Source: Streptacidiphilus sp. 4-A2
GTDB lineage: Bacteria > Actinomycetota > Actinomycetes > Streptomycetales > Streptomycetaceae
Direction of reading: 5' to 3'
Length of the DNA stretch: 64,000 nt
Assembly: GCA_014284505.1 (NCBI GenBank)
Contig: JAAFYY010000001.1
Span: 3,410,001 to 3,474,000 of the forward strand
The notes under the pieces are model-generated. The model worked only from the letters and a program-made list of their open reading frames with translations. It was not told where the DNA came from and searched no databases. A program made the position numbers and the translations under genes. This document shows, piece by piece, positions 1-10,777 of this stretch (positions are counted from its first letter, which is position 1; the number at the start of each line of letters is the position of its first letter).

Positions 1-2
1 AG

Positions 3-899
3 GCCAGCAAGAGCCTGAACACCGCGGCCCGGCTGCTGGACTGGCTGGCCGGCAGCGCGCTGGCCCGCCGGGACGTGGTGCTGGCGATGGGCGGCGGCGT
101 GGTCATCGACACGGTCGGCTGGGTGGCCAGCGTGTATATGCGGGGAGTTCCCTATATCAATGTGCCCACCACATTGCTGGCGCATGTGGATGCGGCCCTG
201 GGCGGAAAGGTCGCGGTCGACCACGCCTCCGCGAAAAACCTGATCGGCGCCTTCTACCAGCCCATGGCGGTCGTTTCGAATGTCGGTTATCTGGTCACGC
301 TCGACCGCCGCCATCTGCGGGCCGGGCTGGCCGAGGCGATCAAGAAGGGCATCATCGCCTCGCCCGAGCTGTTCGAGCTGATCGAGCGGCAGCACGCCGA
401 CATCCTCGCGGCCGACCCGGCGGCGACCGCGCGGCTGGTGCACGGGGCCAGTGTGATCAAATGCCAGCTGATCGCCAAGGACCCGTACGAGGACGATCTG
501 CGGCGGCCGTTGAACTTCGGCCACACCGTCGGGCACGCGGTGGAGACGGTGGCCGGCTACGAGCATGTGCTGCACGGCGAGGCGGTCGCCTTCGGGATGG
601 CGTGCGCCTCCCGGATCGCCGAACGGCGCGGACTGCTGCCGCCGGAGCTGCTGGAGCGGATCACCGGGCTGCTCGGCGAGGTCGGCCTGCCGGTGTTCCT
701 CACCGACCTCCCGGTGCGGATCGATCCGGCGGAGACGCTCAGGGCGCTGGGGCAGATCCGCAAGATCCGCGACGGGCATCTGCGGTTCGTGCTCCCGGTG
801 GGGCTCGGCGAGACGGTGATCGCCGACGATGTGACCGACGAGGAGATCCGCGCGGCGCTGACCGCCACCGCGGAGGGCCCCGGGGGCACCGATGACTGA
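3..899 (+). CDS. Sugar-phosphate cyclase (DHQ-synthase fold), 5'-partial
   Basis: This is an NAD- and zinc-dependent cyclase of the 3-dehydroquinate synthase superfamily. The reading frame is open from base 3, so the N-terminus lies outside the window. Visible motifs are the glycine loop MGGGVVID, VPTTLLAHVDAALGGK, KNLIGAFYQP, and zinc-ligand motifs AEAIKKG (Glu), GHTVGHAVE (His) and LHGEAVA (His). The next gene, a kinase, overlaps its end by 8 bp. Its place beside a VldE homologue suggests it cyclises sedoheptulose 7-phosphate to a valiolone-type C7 cyclitol. However, the PTTLLAHVDAALGGK stretch looks closer to DHQ synthase than to what I recall of ValA/AcbC enzymes. A 2-epi-valiolone synthase or DHQ-like variant is therefore possible. 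Superfamily sure; product uncertain. Confidence 0.85.
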   Translation, partial: ASKSLNTAARLLDWLAGSALARRDVVLAMGGGVVIDTVGWVASVYMRGVPYINVPTTLLAHVDAALGGKVAVDHASAKNLIGAFYQPMAVVSNVGYLVTLDRRHLRAGLAEAIKKGIIASPELFELIERQHADILAADPAATARLVHGASVIKCQLIAKDPYEDDLRRPLNFGHTVGHAVETVAGYEHVLHGEAVAFGMACASRIAERRGLLPPELLERITGLLGEVGLPVFLTDLPVRIDPAETLRALGQIRKIRDGHLRFVLPVGLGETVIADDVTDEEIRAALTATAEGPGGTDD

Positions 900-1800
900 G
901 CTGGATGTGCTGGTGGTGGGCGGGGTCGGCGTGGACATCACCGTCCGGGTCCCGCAGCTGCCGCTGCCCGCGCGGGAGACGATCAGGGTGCCGCCGATCC
1001 AGCAGTACGTCGGCCACACCGGCAACGGCGTGGCCCTGGGCTGCCACCACCTCGGCCTGCGGACGCACTTCGCGGATGTGATCGGCGACGACCCCGAGGG
1101 CGAGCTGGTCCGGGCCCGCTACGCCGGGACCGGGCTCTCCTTCGAGTACCGGTTCCACCCCAGCGGCACCCGGCGCAGCGTCAATCTGGTGGATCCGCAG
1201 GGGGCCCGGGTGTCGCTCTACGACGGCCGCCACCCGCCGGGCCTGACGGTGGACCCGGAGCTCTACCGGGGCGCGCTGGGCCGCACCCGGCATGTGCACG
1301 TGTCGCTCATCGACTGGGCCAGGCACGCCCTGGCGGAGGCCGCCGGCCAGGGGCTGTCCACCTCCACCGACCTGCACAACTGGGACGGCCGGGACGAGTA
1401 CCGCCAGGACTTCGCCTACGGCGCCGACCTGGTGTTCCTCTCGGCGGGGGCCATCGGCGACCGGATCGAGGAGGTCTGCGAGTCGATCCTGGCCAGGGGC
1501 CGGGCCAGGGCGGTGACCGTGATGGCGGGCGGCGCGGGGAGCTATCTGAAGCTGCCCGACCGGCCGCTGCGGCACATCCCCGCGACCGCGGTGCCCGCGG
1601 CGGAGGTGGTGGACACCAACGGCGCCGGGGACAGCTATGTGGCCGGCTTCCTCTACGCCCGGCTGTCCGGGCTGGACTGGGACAGCTGCGCCAGGGCGGG
1701 CTCGCTGGCCGGGGCGCACGCTGTCCGCTCGGCCGGCACCCACACCTCGTTCATCACCGCGCCGGAGCTGAACCGGGAACTGGGCCGGCCGGACAACTGA
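892..1800 (+). CDS. PfkB/ribokinase-family carbohydrate kinase
   Basis: This is an intact 302-aa kinase of the PfkB family. The N-terminus has a GG-containing substrate region (VVGGVGVDITV). The C-terminal anion-hole and catalytic motif DTNGAGDSYVAGF carries the catalytic Asp. The start ATG lies 8 bp inside the cyclase gene, so the two are translationally coupled. By context it probably phosphorylates a C7 cyclitol or a heptose precursor. Validamycin- and acarbose-type pathways need at least one such kinase, and a second unrelated kinase is encoded nearby on the other strand. The substrate cannot be read from sequence. Confidence 0.88.
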   Translation: MTELDVLVVGGVGVDITVRVPQLPLPARETIRVPPIQQYVGHTGNGVALGCHHLGLRTHFADVIGDDPEGELVRARYAGTGLSFEYRFHPSGTRRSVNLVDPQGARVSLYDGRHPPGLTVDPELYRGALGRTRHVHVSLIDWARHALAEAAGQGLSTSTDLHNWDGRDEYRQDFAYGADLVFLSAGAIGDRIEEVCESILARGRARAVTVMAGGAGSYLKLPDRPLRHIPATAVPAAEVVDTNGAGDSYVAGFLYARLSGLDWDSCARAGSLAGAHAVRSAGTHTSFITAPELNRELGRPDN

Positions 1801-1801
1801 C

Positions 1802-2899
1802 CTACGCGGTAAGGCCGGTGCGGTCGGCGGTGAGGTGCTCACCGGCCAGCACCACGGTGTCCCGCGCGGTCACGCCGCGGGCCACGGTCGCGCCGGGCAG
1901 CACCACCGTCCGCTGCACCCGGGCCCCCGGCTCGATCCGGCAGCCCGGGTGCAGCACGCTCCGCTCGACCCGCGCGCCCGCCGGGAGGTCCACCCCGAGC
2001 AGACTGGCCCGCTCGGGCACGAACCGCGGCGGGGCCCCGGGCAGGCTGCGGGGCAGCGCCTCCGGCGGGATCGGGTGCGGCCGCTCCAGCAGCTTCAACT
2101 GCTCGGCGTGGTACCGCTCCACCGTCCCGATGTCGGCCCAGTAGCCGCCGACCGGGTACGCCCGCACCGGGCGGCCCTGCGCGATCATCTCCGGCAGCAC
2201 ATCGCGGCTGATGTCGTGCTGCCAGCCGTCCTCGCCGCGCGCCGCCAGTTCCCCCAGCACCTGCCGCAGGGCGTCGATCCGGAACAGGCAGAAGGCGGTG
2301 AAGACCAGGTCCGAGGTGGGCTCGCGCGGCTTCTCGACCAGCGCGCGCACCCGCAGTTCCCGGTCCACCTCCACCATCCCGAAGAGCTTCACATATCTGC
2401 GTTCGACCCGCTGCACGCCGATCGTGCAGTGCGCCCCCGACGCCCGGTGCGCGGCCGCCATCGGCCGGTAGTCGAAGAGGTAGACATGGTCGGCGTGCTG
2501 GACCAGCAGGTCGTCGGCGCCCGGCGCGAACAGGTGCTCGGCGCTGGCCAGCAGCGCGTCGGCGGTGCCGCGTTCGGCGGGCCGCTCCGGCAGGGTCCCG
2601 CGCCGGTCCGGGCCCCGGCCGCCGCGCAGCAGCCGCTCGTGCGGGCCGAAGTGCAGCCTGGTGCCCGGGCTGCGGTCCCAGTGCGTCAGCAGATGGCGTA
2701 CCAGCTCCGTCTCGCGGTGCAGCGAGAGCAGCACCACTTCCGGCAGCCCGGAGCGGACGGCGTTGGCCAGGCTGAAGTCGATCAGCCGGCAGGAGGCCGC
2801 ATAGGGGACCAGCGGCTTGCAGGTGCCGGCCGTCAGCGGTCCCATCCGGGCGCCGAGCCCGCCCGCCAGCAGTGCTCCGCGTACTCCGGGCAGACTCAC
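1802..2899 (-). CDS. GlgC-like sugar/cyclitol-1-phosphate nucleotidyltransferase
   Basis: This is a 365-aa protein. Its N-terminal nucleotidyltransferase domain has the signature LLAGGLGARMGPLT followed by CKPLVPY, then the substrate motif VEKP. The C-terminus resembles left-handed beta-helix hexapeptide repeats (roughly residues 290-360). I chose the GTG start at 2899 because it sits just before the nucleotide-binding loop and overlaps the upstream gene's stop by 4 bp (GTGA); the frame stays open far upstream without conserved content. ADP-glucose-pyrophosphorylase-like enzymes make NDP-activated cyclitols in validamycin and acarbose pathways (ValB, AcbR). Here it should supply the NDP-cyclitol donor for the VldE homologue. 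Confidence 0.88.
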   Translation of the reverse strand: MSLPGVRGALLAGGLGARMGPLTAGTCKPLVPYAASCRLIDFSLANAVRSGLPEVVLLSLHRETELVRHLLTHWDRSPGTRLHFGPHERLLRGGRGPDRRGTLPERPAERGTADALLASAEHLFAPGADDLLVQHADHVYLFDYRPMAAAHRASGAHCTIGVQRVERRYVKLFGMVEVDRELRVRALVEKPREPTSDLVFTAFCLFRIDALRQVLGELAARGEDGWQHDISRDVLPEMIAQGRPVRAYPVGGYWADIGTVERYHAEQLKLLERPHPIPPEALPRSLPGAPPRFVPERASLLGVDLPAGARVERSVLHPGCRIEPGARVQRTVVLPGATVARGVTARDTVVLAGEHLTADRTGLTA

Positions 2900-3882
2900 C
2901 AGGTCCTCCCCTGGGCCGCGGTCGCGGGCACCAGCCCGCGCAGCACCGTCAGCGAGTTCGCCACGCCCTGCCCGGTCGGCAGCAGCGCGTCCTCGTGCTC
3001 CACATAGACCACGCCCCGGTAGCCCTCGTCGAGCAGCGCGGCCACCACCGCGGGCCAGGGCAGCTCGCCGGAGCCGAGCGCCCGGAAGCGGATGGCCGGG
3101 CCGGGGCCGTAGCGGGTCCAGCCGTCCCCGCGCGGGTCCCGCGGCTCGCGCCAGCGCTCCAGGTCCTTGGCGTGCACGGCGGCGAGGCCGCTGCCCCAGC
3201 CGCGGACGGCGGCCACCGGGTCGTGGCCCACCGCGGCCAGGTTCGCCGGGTCGACGCACAGCCGTACGCCCGGGGCGGCCGCCAGCAGCGCGCGGGCGCT
3301 GGCCGGGTCGTAGACCACCTGCTTCGGGTGCGGCTCCACCACGATCCGCACGCCCAGCCGGGCGGCCAGTTCCAGCAGCGGCGCGGCCGCCCGCGCCCAG
3401 GCGTCGATATTGTCCTGCCAGCTCACCGCGCTGCCCCACCAGGAGAGCCAGCGGCCGACGTCGGGCACCCCCAGCATCAGCCTGGCCTGCGGGGCGCCCA
3501 CCGCCGCGGCCAGCCGCAGCGTGCCCAGCGCGGCCCGCAGCCCGTAGGCGCTCTTGGCCGCCGCCGGGCCCGCCAGCACCGGGTCGGTGTGCGGTCCGTG
3601 CGGCCCGAGCAGCAGCTGGGTGTCCCGGCTGTTGCTGACGCAGCCCACCTCCACCCCGGCGGCGGCCAGCAGCGACCGCAGTTCCCGGTGGTGCTCCGGG
3701 TCGTCCAGCCGGTCGGCGTCGACCAGGCCGAAGGCCCGGTCGGCCGGCAGGTCCACCACGGTCACCCCGGCCTGCCCGGCGGCCCGCAGCGCGCCGCCCA
3801 GGCCGAGCGGCGCCAGCGCGGCGAGGCACAGCCCGAGCCGGATCGGTCCCTGCGCCGCCGTCCCGGCCATGGGCTCCGCCAT
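2896..3882 (-). CDS. Sugar phosphate isomerase/epimerase (xylose-isomerase-like TIM barrel)
   Basis: About 328 aa, read from ATG 3882, which shares a base with the previous gene's stop (TGATG); an in-frame ATG at 3870 is an alternative. The sequence has AP-endonuclease-2/xylose-isomerase barrel features: RIVVEPHPKQ (metal Glu/His), VRLCVDPANLAAVGHDP, AAVHAKDLERW and VYVEHED near the C-terminus, which are typical acidic and His metal ligands. In C7-cyclitol pathways an epimerisation at C2 of the cyclised product is needed, and this gene is a candidate. It lies between the kinase and nucleotidyltransferase genes in one tightly overlapping three-gene arm. Confidence 0.8.
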   Translation of the reverse strand: MAEPMAGTAAQGPIRLGLCLAALAPLGLGGALRAAGQAGVTVVDLPADRAFGLVDADRLDDPEHHRELRSLLAAAGVEVGCVSNSRDTQLLLGPHGPHTDPVLAGPAAAKSAYGLRAALGTLRLAAAVGAPQARLMLGVPDVGRWLSWWGSAVSWQDNIDAWARAAAPLLELAARLGVRIVVEPHPKQVVYDPASARALLAAAPGVRLCVDPANLAAVGHDPVAAVRGWGSGLAAVHAKDLERWREPRDPRGDGWTRYGPGPAIRFRALGSGELPWPAVVAALLDEGYRGVVYVEHEDALLPTGQGVANSLTVLRGLVPATAAQGRTW

Positions 3883-4836
3883 CAGCCCTGCCCTCCGTCC
3901 AGCGGTCGGCGCCACGCCCAGCGTCCGGCGAGGGCGGCGGGCAGCCGGTGCCCGTGCGCCCGCAGCGCGGCGAGCACCGCCCGGGGCGGATCGTCGACCA
4001 CCACCGGCGGGTCCGCGCCGAGTTCGGCCACGATCCGGGTGCGCAGGGCCTCGGCGAACTGCGGGCAGCCGCGGAACACGCCGCCGCCCAGCGTCACCGA
4101 CCAGCCCCCGGTCAGCCCGGCGGCGTCCCGGCCCGCGGCCACTCCCCGGACCAGCTCCCCCAGCGCGGCGGCCACCACCGCGGCGGCCACCGCGTCCTCC
4201 TCCAGCCAGCAGCGGCAGACCACGGCCGCCAGGGCGGCCACCGCGGCCTTGGGAAGGGCTCGGCGGCGAGCCGGCGGGCCAGCTCGCGCACCGGCGCGCC
4301 CGCGTGCCCGGCCAGCGCCCGGCCGAGCGCCGTGGGCCTGCCGCGTCCGTCGGCGCCGCGCACGGCTGCCCGCAGGCCCTCCAGGCCGAGCGCGAAGGCG
4401 CTGCCCTCGTCGCTGCCGAGGTACTCGCAGCCGCCGATGGAGGTCGGCGGCCGTGCCCCGTCGCCCGCGAGAAAGCCGGAGCCGGTCCCGCACACCACCG
4501 CCACACCCCTGCCGCCGAGCGGCGGGGCGAGCAGCAGCGGCACGATGTCCCGGGAGACCACCAGCGTTCCGCGCAGCCCGGCCCGCTCCGCCAGCCGGGC
4601 CAGCCGGTCGAGTTCGGGCTGCGGCGCGTCCGCCCGGAGCGTGGCGGTCGCCAGCCATCCGGCCGAAGGGGCGGGGCCCACCCGGCCGGCGACGGCGCGC
4701 AGCAGTCCGGACAGAGCGCTGTCCGCGGCGGGGCCGCCGACCGAGGCGTGGTTCACCGAACCGACGCGCCAGCGGGTCCCGTCGTCCAGCAGCGCCGTGG
4801 TACCGCTGCCCCGGCATCGATCGCCCAGTTCCTCAC
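3882..4836 (-). CDS. BadF/BadG/N-acetylglucosamine-kinase-type kinase (two frame changes)
   Basis: This is an ASKHA-fold sugar kinase. The product must be read in three frames. GTG 4836 opens with NWAIDAG, which rejoins SGTTALLDDG after a missing base near 4815. A second change near 4250 restores the C-terminus. Motifs include the phosphate-binding GTGSGFLAGDG, GGCEYLGSDEGSAFALG typical of the BadF/BadG family, and the C-terminal VTLGGGVFRG. The frame changes fall in G/C runs and the protein is otherwise complete, so I suspect sequence error. It is the first gene of the leftward arm and overlaps the isomerase stop-to-start. It is probably a second cyclitol or sugar kinase of the cluster. Confidence 0.75.
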
Positions 4837-4892: not shown

Positions 4893-6144
4893 GTGGCGCG
4901 GCCGGTCCTGTCGACGGCGGCGGGATGCCCTCTCACGGACGGAGTGCCTGTGCCGGACGCAGCGCCTGGGCGCCGGGACGGCGGAGTACTCGGCCTGCTG
5001 GCCGTCGCGGTCAGCTGGGGGTGTTCTGGGCGGCTGGTCCGCGCTGCTCCCCGGGGTCAAGTCCGAAGTTCGCACTGACGGACCAGCAGCTGGGGCTGGC
5101 GCTGTTCGCCGTCCCGCTGGCCGCGGTACCGGCCATGCTGCTCACCGGACCGCTGGCGCACCGGCTGGCGCAGCACACCCTGCCGGTGGTCACCGCGCTC
5201 TTCGCGGTCGCCGTCCTGCTGGTCGGGCTGAGCGGTTCCCGGGCGGCCTTCACCGCCTCGCTGCTGCTGGTCGGGGCGTCCAGCGGCGGCATCGAGGTGG
5301 GGCTCAACGCCACCCTCGCCGCCTGGGAGGCCAGGGACGGCCGACGGCTGTTCAACAAGGTGCACTCGGCCACGCCGCTGGCGATGGTGGTGGCCGCGCC
5401 GGGCGCCGGTCTGGCGCGCTATCTCGGCGCCTCCCGAGGGCGGTGCTGATCGCCGTCGCGGTGCTGGTGGGGGTGAGCGCGGTGCTCGCGGTCAGCCCGC
5501 GCGGCTGGCAGGAGCAGCCGTCGCAGGCCGGGCCGGGAGCCGGGGCCGCGGCCGGCCGGGCCCGGCGGCTGACCTGGCTGCTGCTGGCGCTCGGGGCGGT
5601 GGGGGCGGTGGCGCTGCTGATGGAGAACAGCGTGGAGCAGTGGGGCGCGATCCACCTGGTGCAGCAACTCGGCACCGGTCCGCTGCTGGCGAGCTGCGGA
5701 CCGGCGGCCTACATGGCAGGGTTGTCGGCGGGGCGGATGCTCGCCCAGTGGCAGGGGCAGCGGCTGTCCGACCAGTCGTTGGTCTCGATCGGCGGGGTCG
5801 TCGGCGGGGTCGGCCTGGCTGTCGCCGCAGCCGCCTGGAACATCCCCTGGACGCTGGCCGGTTACGCGGTCGCCGGGGTCGGGCTGGCACCGGTGGTGCC
5901 CACGCTGCTCGCGGCGGTGGGCCGCGGGGTCGGCCCCGGGCGGCGCGCGCGGGCGATCTCGACCGTGACCACGGTCTCCTACGCCGGGTTCCTGTGCAGC
6001 CCGCCGCTGGTGGGCACGCTCGCCGGGGCCGTGGGGCTGCCGTCCGCGCTCGGCGTGGTGGCGCTCGGCGGGGTGCTGGTGGCGGCGGGCGGACAGGTCG
6101 TACGGATCCACGGGGCCCAGACGAGTCAGAGGGAACGAAGATGA
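4893..6144 (+). CDS. MFS transporter of the cyclitol cluster (several frame changes)
   Basis: This is a 12-helix type major facilitator, about 415 aa when pieced together. It starts at GTG 4893. The first helix (GLLAVAVSWG) and FWAA, SALLPGVKSE, FALTDQQLGLALF lie in three frames between 4990 and 5080. Another change near 5435 leads into the C-terminal half (VLIAVAVLVG to 6144). The second helix and loop (GLALFAVPLAAVPAMLLTGP) resemble FucP/YbjJ-type sugar permeases. The stop overlaps the next start by 4 bp (ATGA). It probably exports the pseudo-sugar product or takes up a precursor. Confidence 0.75.
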
Positions 6145-7051
6145 CAGACCATCGGCGGCGCGCTCTGGTCGTCGGGGCGGGCTACCTGGCCGGCCGGGTC
6201 GGCGCGGAGCTCAGCGCGCTCGGACACGCCGTCACCCTCAGCTCCCGGCAGCCGCCCAGCACCGCACAGGCCCGGCAGCTGGACTGGCGCCCGGTCGACG
6301 CCCGCGACCGCCGCTCCGTGCACGCCCTGCTCGACGCGGCCCGCCCGGACGCCGTGGTGGTCGCGCACGGCCCCTCCGACATCACCTGGTGCGAGGCGAA
6401 CCCCGGCCAGGCGGCCGCCGCGCACCTCGGCGGCGCGCGCCATCTGGCCGAGGCGCTGGACGGCCGCCGGGCCCTGCTCATCTCCACCGACAATGTCTTC
6501 GACGGCCACCGGACCAGCTACGGCGAGCACGACCCCACCGGGCCCGCCAACGCCTACGGCCGGGCCAAACTCGCCGCCGAGGAGACCCTGCTGGCCGGCC
6601 GTGACGCGCTGGTGCTGCGGGTGAGCCTGGTCTACGGCTGGGACCGCGCCGGTCTGCGGCCGAACTTCTTCAGCGCCTGTGCGCAGCAGCTGGGCGCGGG
6701 CCGCCCGGTGGCGGTGCCCGACGACCACTGGAACAGCCCGTACTGGTCGACGACGTCGCCGCCTGGACCGCCGCCCTGCTGGACTCCGCGCACACCGGAG
6801 TGGTGCACCTGGGCGGCCCGAGGCGGCTGAGCCGGCTCGCCTGGGCCCGACACATCGCCGAGTGCTGCGGGGCCGATCCGGCGCTGGTCCGGCCGGCGCC
6901 GCAGCAGTCCACGGCGTACGCCTGCCGCCCCCGCAACGCCTGCCTGCACAGCACCCGCGCCGGGCAGCTGCCGGAGCTCTCCGGACTGGCACCGGTGGAC
7001 GTGCTGGAGGCCACCGACAAGCTCATCACCCAAGGAGAAGAGCAACTGTGA
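6141..7051 (+). CDS. RmlD-like NAD(P)-dependent sugar/cyclitol reductase (one frame change)
   Basis: This is an extended short-chain dehydrogenase of the dTDP-4-dehydrorhamnose reductase type. It has a Rossmann start (LVVGAGYLAGRVG), STDNVFDG, and the catalytic YGRAK (Tyr-x3-Lys) in NAYGRAKLAAEE. The frame changes near 6740, after DDHWNSPY, and resumes as LVDDVAAWTAALLDS. About 303 aa. It overlaps the transporter by 4 bp and the VldE homologue by 4 bp, so it belongs to the rightward operon. Its substrate is unknown; a keto-cyclitol phosphate or a NDP-sugar are both possible. Confidence 0.8.
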
Positions 7052-8491
7052 CGGAACATCAGATCTACCTGGCCAGCAAGCGGGCGGCCGTGAGCTTCGC
7101 GCCCGACCCGGAGACCGGCGAGCTGAGACCCTGGCTGGCGCCGGGCGGCACCGGCAATGTGGTCGCCGAGCAGGCCGGTGTGCTGGACGTGTCCTGGATC
7201 GCCAGCGCCGACACCGACGACGACCACCGCGCCGCCCAGGAGAATCCGGACGGCCTGCTGCTCGGCCTCGGCTCCGGCCGGCAGATCCGGGTCCGGCTGG
7301 TGCGCCACGACCGGGGACCTTCGAGGTCGTGCAGAACTTCCTCACCGCCGGGCTGCTGTGGGCGAGCAACAACCACGGCTGGGACACCTGGACCACGCCC
7401 ACCTTCGACGCCGGGGCGTACCGGGCGATGGAGTGCTTCGCCGAGTTCACCGGCGACTTCGCCGAGGCACTGCTGAAGAGCTCGGCCGATGCCACCGACC
7501 CGGTGTACCTGGTCCACGACTACCAGCTGGTCGCGGTCCCGGAGCGGCTGCGCGAACAGCGGCCCGACGCGCCGGTCCTGCTGTTCGTGCACATCCCCTG
7601 GCCGTCGCCGGACTACTGGCGGGTGCTGCCGAAGCCGATGCGGGCCGGCCTGCTCGAAGGCATGCTGCCGGCCACCACCATCGGCTTCTTCGCCGACCGC
7701 TGGTGCCGCAACTTCCTCGACTGCGTGAGCGATCTGCTCCCGGACGCGGAGGTCGACCGCGAGCGCGGCACCGTGCGCCACCGGGGCCGGGTCACCCGGG
7801 TCCGGACCATGCCGCTCGGATACAGCCCGCTGACCATCGCCGGCGCGCGCCCCGGCTGCCGGAGGGCATCGCCGAATGGGCGGGCGACGCCCCGCTGGTG
7901 GTGCACAGCGGGCGGACCGACCCGATCAAGAACGCCGAGCGCGCCGTGCGGGCGTTCGCGCTGGCGGTGCGTTCCGACGAGCGCCTGCGCGGCACCCGGA
8001 TGCTGGTGCGGATGAACCCCAACCGGCTCTATGTCGAGGCCAACGCCGACTATGTGCGCCGGGTGCGGGCCGCCGTCGCCGAGACCAACGCCGAACTGGG
8101 CGCGGACACCGTGCGCCTGCACTGCGACAACGAGGTCGAGCACACCCTCGGCTGCTTCCGGCGGGCCGACCTGCTGATGTTCAACTCCACCGTGGACGGG
8201 CAGAACCTGAGCGCCTTCGAGGCGCCGCTGGTCAACGAGCGCGACGCCGAGGTGGTGCTCTCCGAGATGTGCGGAGCGGCGGAGGTGCTCGGCCCGGTCT
8301 GCCGCACCGTCAACCCCTTCGACCTGGTGGAGCAGGCCGAGGCGATCGCCGCCGGCCTGACCGCCCCGGCCGCGCAGCGGGCCCGGTCCGCCGAGCGCCG
8401 CCGGGCGGCCGCCGAGCCGTGGACGCTGGAGGCCTGGGTGCGCGCCCAGCTCGACGGACTGGCCACCGACCACCGGGCCCGCCATGAGTGA
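7048..8491 (+). CDS. VldE/ValL-type pseudoglycosyltransferase (validoxylamine 7'-phosphate synthase family)
   Basis: This is a GT20-like protein of about 480 aa that matches my recollection of VldE almost throughout: the N-terminal IYLASKRAA, WLAPGGTGNVVAEQAGVL, PVYLVHDYQLV, LLFVHIPWPS, GFFADRWCRNFL, VVHSGRTDPIKNAERAVRAF, RMNPNRLYV and FNSTVDGQNLS...FEAPLVNERDA. VldE joins an NDP-cyclitol to an aminocyclitol phosphate by a C-N bond without a glycosidic linkage. Two frame changes (near 7315 and 7857) lie in otherwise conserved sequence. The start is GTG 7048, with AAGGAG at 7032-7037 and a 4-bp overlap with the upstream stop. This gene identifies the cluster type. Confidence 0.9.
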
Positions 8492-9786
8492 GCTCACGGC
8501 GGACCCGGCCGCGCACGACCCGGTCGCGGACGACCCGGCTGCGGACGACCCGAACCTGGTCTCGCAGTACAAGCTCGGTGACGCCGTGCTGGTCAGCGGC
8601 GAGGGTGTGCGCTGCTGGGACAGCGCCGGCCGGGAGTACCTCGACTGCGTCTCGGGGACCTTCAACCTGCTGCTCGGCCACAGCCATCCGGAAGTGCTGG
8701 CGGCGATCCGGGCGCAGTCCGAGGAACTGGTCTTCGCCAGCTCCTCGTTCCAGACCGAGGCCACCAACCGGGTGATGCGGGAGCTGGTCCGGATCAGCCC
8801 CGCCAACCTGACCCGGGTGAATCTGCGCAGCTCGGGCGGTTCCACCGCGAACGAGGGCGCGATCAAGATCGCCCAGCACCACACCGGCCGACGGGATGTC
8901 ATCGTGCCGTTCCGCGGCCATGTCGGCCAGACGCTGGCGGCGGCGAGCTTCAACGGCAGCGCCCGGATGCGCGCCCCTTCCCCTACCGCTTCCCGGGCTC
9001 GGTGCAGGTGCCCGGCCCCTACTGCGGCCGCTGCTTCTACCGGCAGACACCGGACAGCTGCGGAATGCTGTGCGTGCAGCGGATCGAGGACTTCACGAGT
9101 ACGCCAGTTCCGGCAGCGTCGCCTGCCTGATCATCGAACCATCAGCGGGATGGGCGGGAACGTCGTCCCCCCCCGGGCTACCTCCAGGAGCTGAAGTCCT
9201 TCTGCGAGGAGCGGGAGATCGTGCTGATCTTCGACGAGATTCCAGACGGATTCGGCCGCACCGGCGAGATGTTCGCCGCCGACCACTTCGGGGTCAGCCG
9301 CACATGATGACCCTCTCCAAGGGCCTGACCGGCAGCGGCCTGCCGCTGGCCGCGATCCTCACCGAGGAGCGGATGGCCGGCTGGACCGCTCGCTGCACAG
9401 CTTCACCTACGGCGGGCACACCCTCTCCGCCCGCCGCGGTGAAGACCCTGGAGATCGTGCAGCGTCCGGGTTTCCTGGAGAACGTCCGCGCCAGCGGGGC
9501 CGTGCTGCTGGAGCGCCTGCGCGGGCTCCAGCAGGACCACCCGGTCATCGGCGACGTGCGCGGGGTGGCCTGATGCTGGGCGTGGAACTGGTGCTGCCCG
9601 ACGGCGGCAAGGCGGTCGAAGCGGCCCACGCCCTGCACCGCGCGCTGGAGCGGCGCGGCGTGCTCACCCGGGTGTCCGAGCACGGCCTCGGCAATGTCAT
9701 CGAGCTGCGCCGCCGCTGATCCTGACGCCCGCCGAGGCACACCTGGTGGCCGACCGGTTCGGTGAAGCCCTGGCGGCCTGCCCTGA
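8484..9786 (+). CDS. Class III PLP aminotransferase, ValM-like (several frame changes)
   Basis: Residues from ATG 8484 run in frame to about 8970 ([34 protein letters not shown]). They then continue through several frame changes: [37 protein letters not shown], the PLP-lysine motif [23 protein letters not shown], and the C-terminus [19 protein letters not shown]. It overlaps the VldE homologue by 8 bp. The role expected from validamycin biosynthesis is transamination of a keto-cyclitol to the aminocyclitol acceptor. The stop position is approximate because the frame is lost near the end. The near-repetitive N-terminal Asp/Pro/Ala segment (residues 7-24) is unusual. Confidence 0.8.
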
Positions 9787-9788
9787 GA

Positions 9789-10777
9789 GTGGTGCTGGGC
9801 CCGGACGGTCCGCGGCTGGAGCCCTCCCCGGCGGAGCGGCCGCCGGCGAGCACGCGGTCAGGGTCCGGGTCGAACTGGCCGGGTCTGCCGGTCGGACCTC
9901 AAGGAGGTGGCCGGAAGCCGGCACGGGGCAAGCCAGTTCGGGCACGAGATCGTCGGCACGGTCGAGCGGTCCACCCTCCCCGGCCTGCGCCGGGGCTGCG
10001 GGTCACCTGGACCCCAATGTGACGGTCGGACGCAGCACCGGCTTCGCCGGCGCCATGTGGGCGGCCGGCCCGGCCGACCGGCTCACCGCGGCGCTGCCGG
10101 CCGTACCGGAGCACATCGCCGCGCGCACGCTGGTGTTCGCGGAGCCTGGCCTGCGCCCGCCACTGCCTGGCCGCGGTCGCCCGGCACCTGGGCGGCGAAC
10201 CCGCCGGGCTGCGCCTGGGCGTGCTCGGCGCGGGGACCGCCGGGGTGCTCATCGCCTCCCTCGCCCGGGCCGCGGGTCTGGAGGTCACCCTGGCCAACCG
10301 GAGCCCCGACCGCCGGTCGTTCCTGCGGGAACGCGAGGTGGTCGACGCCCCGGTGGGCCCGATGGCGGCCGTGCCGAGCGGCTCGCTGGACGTCGCGGTG
10401 GTCGCGACCAGCTTCGTCCTCCCCGAGGTGCTGCGCGAAGCGCTGCGGATGACCGCCCCGGGCGGGCTGGTGCTGCTGTACGGCGGTACCGCGCCGGCGA
10501 CTCGCTCCCGGGGCTGGAGTGCGACCTGGACACCGTGCGGCGGCGCCAGATCGCCGAGCCGGTCAGCTGGCAGGGCAGGCGGCTGCGCATCGGCGGCAGC
10601 TACGGCACGGTGCGCGCCGACTTCGACGCGGCCCTGCGGGACCTCGCGCAGGCGGTCGTCCCGGCGCACCGCATCGAGCGGCTGATCACCCAGGAGGTAT
10701 CGCTCCGCCAGCTCCCGCGCGTGCTGCGGGAGAAGAGCAGCGGCCGGCATGTCGGCAAGACCCTCGTCCTGCCGTGA
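9789..10777 (+). CDS. Zinc-type alcohol dehydrogenase, ValN-like cyclitol reductase (frame changes)
   Basis: This is a medium-chain dehydrogenase, readable through several frames. It shows DLKEVAGSRHGASQFGHEIVG (a GHE catalytic-zinc motif region), then a Rossmann domain with LGVLGAGTAGVLIASLARAAG, ending TLVLP at 10777. ATG/GTG choice is unclear because the first 120 bases change frame; GTG 9789, directly after the aminotransferase, is the best candidate. The family reduces cyclitol ketones or enes in validamycin-type pathways (ValN). It is the last gene of the rightward arm and faces the convergent MarR gene. Confidence 0.75.

Follow-up and report, generated by a model that had tools for sequence, protein, structure and literature searches.

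Enzymes of the sugar phosphate cyclase superfamily close their rings by oxidation dependent on nicotinamide adenine dinucleotide (NAD) and a metal, phosphate elimination, reduction, ring opening, and aldol closure. The closest described relative of the system treated here is found in Actinosynnema mirum, whose cyclase Amir_2000 reportedly makes 2-epi-valiolone (work of Asamizu et al. from 2012) and whose pseudosugar pathway is said to be the subject of a paper by Asamizu et al. from 2013, judging from its title. VldE/ValL genes are reported to cluster with genes for a sugar phosphate cyclase, a nucleotidyltransferase, and a transaminase; in validamycin biosynthesis, GDP-valienol is the product of the nucleotidyltransferase, and cyclitols are joined by the coupler (PMC12041759). 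Here, we describe a cyclase gene at the start of a 64,000-nucleotide stretch of Streptacidiphilus sp. 4-A2 (contig JAAFYY010000001.1, positions 3,410,001 to 3,474,000, or G000:C4:3410001-3474000 in our coordinates), which as a whole is called the window below. From its sequence and surroundings, this enzyme is very probably a 2-epi-valiolone synthase (EVS) that would initiate a pseudosugar pathway of the A. mirum type, because it belongs to the same clade as the A. mirum protein, retains the expected residues, lacks the signature of the 2-epi-5-epi-valiolone synthases (EEVS), lies among pseudosugar-type genes, and is accompanied by a separate aroB elsewhere in the genome. The cluster type is already present in A. 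mirum, and the window cyclase is a further EVS-type member of what is a small and distinct actinobacterial family.

The likeness of this cyclase to 3-dehydroquinate synthase (DHQS) is real. A sequence-only reading had pointed to DHQS-like motifs, and the frame at 3-899 on the plus strand is indeed open and contains all of MGGGVVID, VPTTLLAHVDAALGGK, and NFGHTVGHAVE. DHQS also ranks first among the PDB matches found with phmmer (225 bits, vs 171.5 for ValA, 151 for desmethyl-4-deoxygadusol synthase (DDGS), and 123 for the 2-deoxy-scyllo-inosose synthase (DOIS) 2d2x), the Pfam matches are PF01761 and PF24621, and the NCBIfam aroB model gives 289 bits on the part of the protein encoded within the window. 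The gene is cut by the window edge and its frame opens 271 bases upstream of window position 1; the full frame, counted from a TTG as putative start codon, encodes 389 amino acids and is open throughout. When the predicted model of the orthologue from Streptomyces sp. CB01881 (pLDDT 87.6) was compared with Foldseek, DHQS again came first, ValA reached a TM score of 0.84, and the fold comparison did not separate the cyclase subtypes. According to a published account, a clade of confirmed EVS enzymes would pass for DHQS without the activity data (PMC5133447), which is the same pattern as that of the window cyclase.

In a tree of 90 rows, the window cyclase falls into a 31-row clade with support of 100/99 that also holds the A. 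mirum protein, and outside it lie the EEVS rows (ValA among them), DDGS, and actinobacterial aroB. This clade was kept when 21 mainly long-branched rows were removed (31 rows, 99/99) and when eight DHQS-like proteins, out of the 14 nearest ones detected, were added (24 rows, 100/99). All three trees, which were built without a confirmed DOIS (BtrC-type) row or a RifG-type aminoDHQS reference, group EEVS with DDGS at 100/100 and leave the window cyclase outside; it does not group with the DDGS rows (PDB 5tpr and the A. mirum DDGS) and lacks the DDGS residues A268 and P275. None of the trees places it in the canonical EEVS clade or in the aroB clade, and its grouping with the A. mirum EVS candidate supports the earlier suggestion that it may be an EVS or a different subtype of sedoheptulose-phosphate cyclase. 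The clade itself came out as sister to EEVS plus DDGS (99/93, 100/98, and 99/96 in the three trees), a position that is favored, not proven. Beside actinobacterial aroB stands another well-supported but unassigned group of eight cyclase rows (L125, which is the A. mirum gene at 3.87 Mb, L118, L120, L127, L130, L132, L133, and L134), and the two members examined, L118 and L120, carry the motif GEIARCHFI.

Fifteen active-site columns, numbered after the A. nidulans DHQS with the numbering checked on the PDB sequence, were compared over 31 clade, 31 DHQS, 11 EEVS, and two DDGS rows. K250, L267, N268, and H275 occur in 31/31 clade rows and R264 in 30/31, and all five are present in 31/31 DHQS rows. 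EEVS rows have M at 250 and D at 268 (11/11 each), V, M, or A at 267 (11/11), P at 275 (10/11, otherwise G), and a mixed position 264 with R in 3/11, and DDGS has M, I, A, and P at 250, 267, 268, and 275. The metal ligands E194, H271, and H287 are conserved. The residues shared with DHQS at 250, 264, 267, 268, and 275 would go with a DHQS-like ring closure, and their loss in EEVS may go with the opposite configuration at C5. Near the C-terminus, DHQS has a D-K-K motif, with the first D and K in 30/31 rows and a gap in the remaining one (presumably 1dqs, whose sequence ends at residue 327), and the clade has I and R at these two positions (30/31 each). The clade rows also share P258 and Y259 (31/31), and among 38 different clade sequences the motif DPYE was present in all 38, D-K-K in none, and the third column of the former D-K-K was occupied by K (21), Q (11), E (4), or L (2). 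In the phylum of G942, the 14 DHQS-like proteins, with identities of 41-50%, have all retained D-K-K. A myxobacterial EVS reference, that of Stigmatella, was not found among 395 genomes drawn from the phylum of L016's genome, where 14 genomes gave a match and all 14 matches were DHQS-like with D-K-K.

The window genome has its own housekeeping enzyme. Its two PF01761 matches are the cyclase and a separate aroB, which lies in a block aroE-aroC-aroK-aroB-aroQ recognized from frames and from Pfam matches for chorismate synthase, shikimate kinase, DHQS, and type II dehydroquinase, with a weak C-terminal match (34.8 bits) for shikimate dehydrogenase. The window cyclase gene lies outside this block and outside the aroB clades of the trees. 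In five genomes with a clade member, reached through named loci, a further cyclase of 34-39% identity was present in 5/5. A primary-metabolism DHQS was ruled out as a candidate by the tree, the residues, and the gene context.

The link to a characterized enzyme runs through the A. mirum genome, which has four cyclase matches at about 2.216, 3.87, 5.02, and 6.25 Mb. In the tree, the 2.216 Mb gene, at position 2,215,665, is the clade member, the 5.02 Mb gene stands with DDGS 5tpr, and the 6.25 Mb gene stands with aroB. The A. mirum shinorine genes are given as amir_4256-4259 in one source (PMC10384724), and interpolation of locus numbers from the DDGS at 5.02 Mb puts the 2.216 Mb gene at about 1880-1930 and the 3.87 Mb gene at about 3280-3360. 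Because the interpolated number nearest to 2000 falls on the 2.216 Mb gene, Amir_2000 is most likely this clade member.

The cyclase and its neighbors in the window are as follows:
1..899, plus strand: EVS-type sugar phosphate cyclase (frame, PDB matches, tree, residue columns, Pfam), starting about 270 bases upstream
892..1800, plus strand: PfkB-family kinase, candidate cyclitol kinase (PF00294; 83% to the CB01881 protein)
1811..2895, ends approximate, minus strand: nucleotidyltransferase with a putative ValB-like role (82% to the CB01881 protein, itself matching PF00483)
2896..3831, minus strand: xylose-isomerase-like TIM-barrel protein, candidate cyclitol-ketone epimerase or dehydratase (PF01261; 63% to the A. 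mirum protein)
3880..4820, approximate, in two pieces, minus strand: BadF/BcrA-type kinase, candidate cyclitol kinase (56% to the A. mirum protein, itself matching PF01869)
4950..6144, approximate, in two pieces, plus strand: major facilitator superfamily (MFS) transporter (PF07690 in the CB01881 homologue)
6130..7010, approximate, in two pieces, plus strand: RmlD-like reductase/epimerase (PF04321 in the L085 homologue)
7010..8491, approximate, in three pieces, plus strand: VldE-type GT20 pseudoglycosyltransferase (PF00982 at 7329-8012; best piece 77% to the L085 protein)
8484..9740, approximate, frame seemingly broken, plus strand: class III aminotransferase (PF00202 at 8484-9191)
9746..10777, approximate, in two pieces, plus strand: zinc-type alcohol dehydrogenase of the medium-chain dehydrogenase/reductase (MDR) type (PF08240 in the CB01881 homologue)

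The VldE context assumed from the start for this cyclase was confirmed by the GT20 match in the window and by the homologue in L085, which scores 755 bits with VldE vs 131.5 with the best trehalose-phosphate synthase. All of the family-scanned neighbors are pseudosugar-type, and no shikimate enzyme was found among them. The TIM-barrel protein has weak kin in the PDB (best 42.8 bits), so it may be either an epimerase or a dehydratase. Between 3880 and 10777, five of the nine neighbor genes match in two or three pieces, and the same queries match in a single piece wherever they match in the other 27 loci described below; the genome's aroB (G000:C4:3873900-3875100) seems to be divided between two frames, and the completeness rating of the genome is 76.5%. 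Because of the fragmented matches, the split aroB, and this completeness, assembly indels are likely in the window genome.

Compared with the A. mirum system, the window has the same clade of cyclase, the same 15 catalytic residues, and the same loss of D-K-K, and both clusters combine the cyclase with a BadF kinase, a TIM barrel, a nucleotidyltransferase, an MFS transporter, an RmlD protein, a VldE-type GT20 enzyme, a class III aminotransferase, and an MDR. However, the gene order is rearranged, the kinase and the TIM barrel are fused in A. mirum, and in the stretches searched PfkB was matched at the window only and a HAD hydrolase in A. mirum only. The validamycin EEVS ValA (PDB 4p53) is alike in fold, as judged from the CB01881 model, and in having a VldE-type coupling partner, but it belongs to a separate clade with the residues at 250, 267, 268, and 275 replaced. 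The VldE/ValL clusters of validamycin and salbostatin have the same gene company, whereas another cyclase subtype supplies their ring. AroB shares with the window cyclase the catalytic residues and similar motifs, with an aroB cut-off that does not tell the two apart, but differs in clade, in its D-K-K, in lacking the DPYE motif, and in its place within the shikimate block. From these relatives and neighbors, a route with its substrate, product, sequence of reactions, and end structure can be proposed. The cyclase would convert sedoheptulose 7-phosphate, drawn from the pentose phosphate pathway, to 2-epi-valiolone; the ring would be epimerized or dehydrated, phosphorylated, activated as a nucleotide, and aminated by the neighboring enzymes; and the VldE-type enzyme would couple two units to a validoxylamine-like, trehalose-mimicking pseudodisaccharide.

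Several observations weigh against the assignment as an EVS. The full cyclase scores 315.4 bits with the NCBIfam aroB model (TIGR01357), above the cut-off of 305; the A. mirum clade member does likewise (321.3 bits), and therefore this cut-off does not separate EVS-type enzymes from DHQS. Residues 250 and 264, which bind the carboxylate of 3-deoxy-D-arabino-heptulosonate 7-phosphate (DAHP) in DHQS, are kept in the clade. Two topologies that unite the clade with DHQS were not rejected by approximately unbiased (AU) tests (p of 0.095 and 0.091), for which reason we do not claim the deep sister position. One DHQS-like protein is 50% identical to the window cyclase over 315 residues, and the A. 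mirum protein is 56-58% identical to the window cyclase, with Q where the latter has K in the third column of the former D-K-K. Finally, the match between the Amir_2000 locus tag and the coordinates is interpolated, and the tie of the window cyclase to a characterized EVS rests in part on this interpolation.

The distance from the A. mirum protein and the exchange of K and Q would suit a clade member that cyclizes sedoheptulose 7-phosphate to another stereoisomer or a further processed ring, the window branch having diverged from A. mirum. The PfkB kinase adds to this, since among the 28 clade loci whose flanks were compared (27 genomes including that of the window, one of which holds two copies, L011 and L093; some of the flanks are cut off by the end of a contig), it was matched in nine including the window and not in the A. 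mirum stretch searched. We regard such a different product as unlikely, because the window and A. mirum proteins are identical at 15/15 catalytic columns and the cluster enzymes of the window or its branch (CB01881 and L085) share 50-69% identity with their A. mirum counterparts, which makes it probable that the downstream enzymes meet the same substrate series. A second true DHQS, or an enzyme of the aminoDHQ type, with substrates similar to DAHP would account for the aroB-like motifs, the passed cut-off, and the kept catalytic residues, but it is quite improbable with a separate aroB beside aroC, aroK, and aroQ, with D-K-K in 0/38 clade sequences and its D and K in 30/31 DHQS rows, and with neighbors of pseudosugar rather than shikimate type. 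An EEVS making 2-epi-5-epi-valiolone, for which the VldE-type context speaks as in validamycin, is scarcely credible, as canonical EEVS was ruled out by the tree (the cyclase stands outside EEVS plus DDGS, 100/100 in three trees), by the lack of the EEVS residues at 250, 267, 268, and 275, and by the gene context.

The EVS-type cyclase of the window has relatives in several families. In three family searches, homologues of 55-86% identity were found: in 13 further genomes of 394 searched in the window's family (14 with its own; E up to 1e-75), and as clade members in 15/346 genomes of the family of Allokutzneria sp. (G394) and 7/200 of the family of Actinomadura sp. DC4 (G395), both at E up to 1e-70. 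Because homologues recur across the three family searches, the motif likeness is not due to chance. When named genome contigs were scanned once, 28 relatives were obtained; seven of them (L005-L011) share 59-85% identity with the cyclase. Within the window's genus, of which the family listing holds 14 genomes, a clade member was found in the window's genome only, which indicates sporadic occurrence.

These relatives differ in their coupling enzyme. A VldE-type GT20 match lies near the cyclase in 20/28 loci, and five loci (L011, L082, L086, L087, and L096) have no GT20 match. All five contain a GT4 protein instead; that of L086 scores 200 bits with trehalose phosphorylase/synthase and 170 bits with TreT in the PDB, and the other four are 43-63% identical to it. 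The GT4 gene lies about 4.7 kb after the cyclase start in L086 and L087, 4.3 kb after it in L011, and 3.3-4.9 kb before it in L082 and L096. In these five TreT-type loci, RmlD and BadF matches were found in 5/5 and a TIM-barrel match in 4/5, and the nucleotidyltransferase and class III aminotransferase queries matched in none. Actinomadura sp. DC4 has one cyclase copy in each architecture. In the literature searched, namely titles and abstract openings with few subscription journals covered, we recognized no description of an EVS-type cyclase together with a TreT-type coupler. As a tentative proposal, EVS-type cyclases may feed wider trehalose-mimic pathways with two exchangeable couplers, VldE-type GT20 or TreT-type GT4, the latter of which might attach the carbasugar made via EVS to ordinary activated glucose by a C-O bond to give a carba-trehalose. 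Three loci (L009, L083, and L084) have neither coupler; in L009 and L084, the cyclase precedes another class III aminotransferase, 30-32% identical to that of the cluster, and, by eye, ABC transporter-like genes, a third architecture. By eye, a FAD-type GMC-oxidoreductase-like protein lies near the cyclase in L081, L082, L092, L093, and L096.

Since both fully scanned proteins of the EVS clade pass the aroB cut-off, automatic naming as aroB is probable, and genes of this clade probably carry the annotation 3-dehydroquinate synthase. Genome mining would overlook pseudosugar clusters that are misnamed in this way. With an active site resembling that of DHQS in the setting of a cyclitol pathway, the clade is a natural comparison for the residues that set substrate and ring stereochemistry, and the TreT-type clusters offer a concrete lead to compounds that may resemble trehalase inhibitors.
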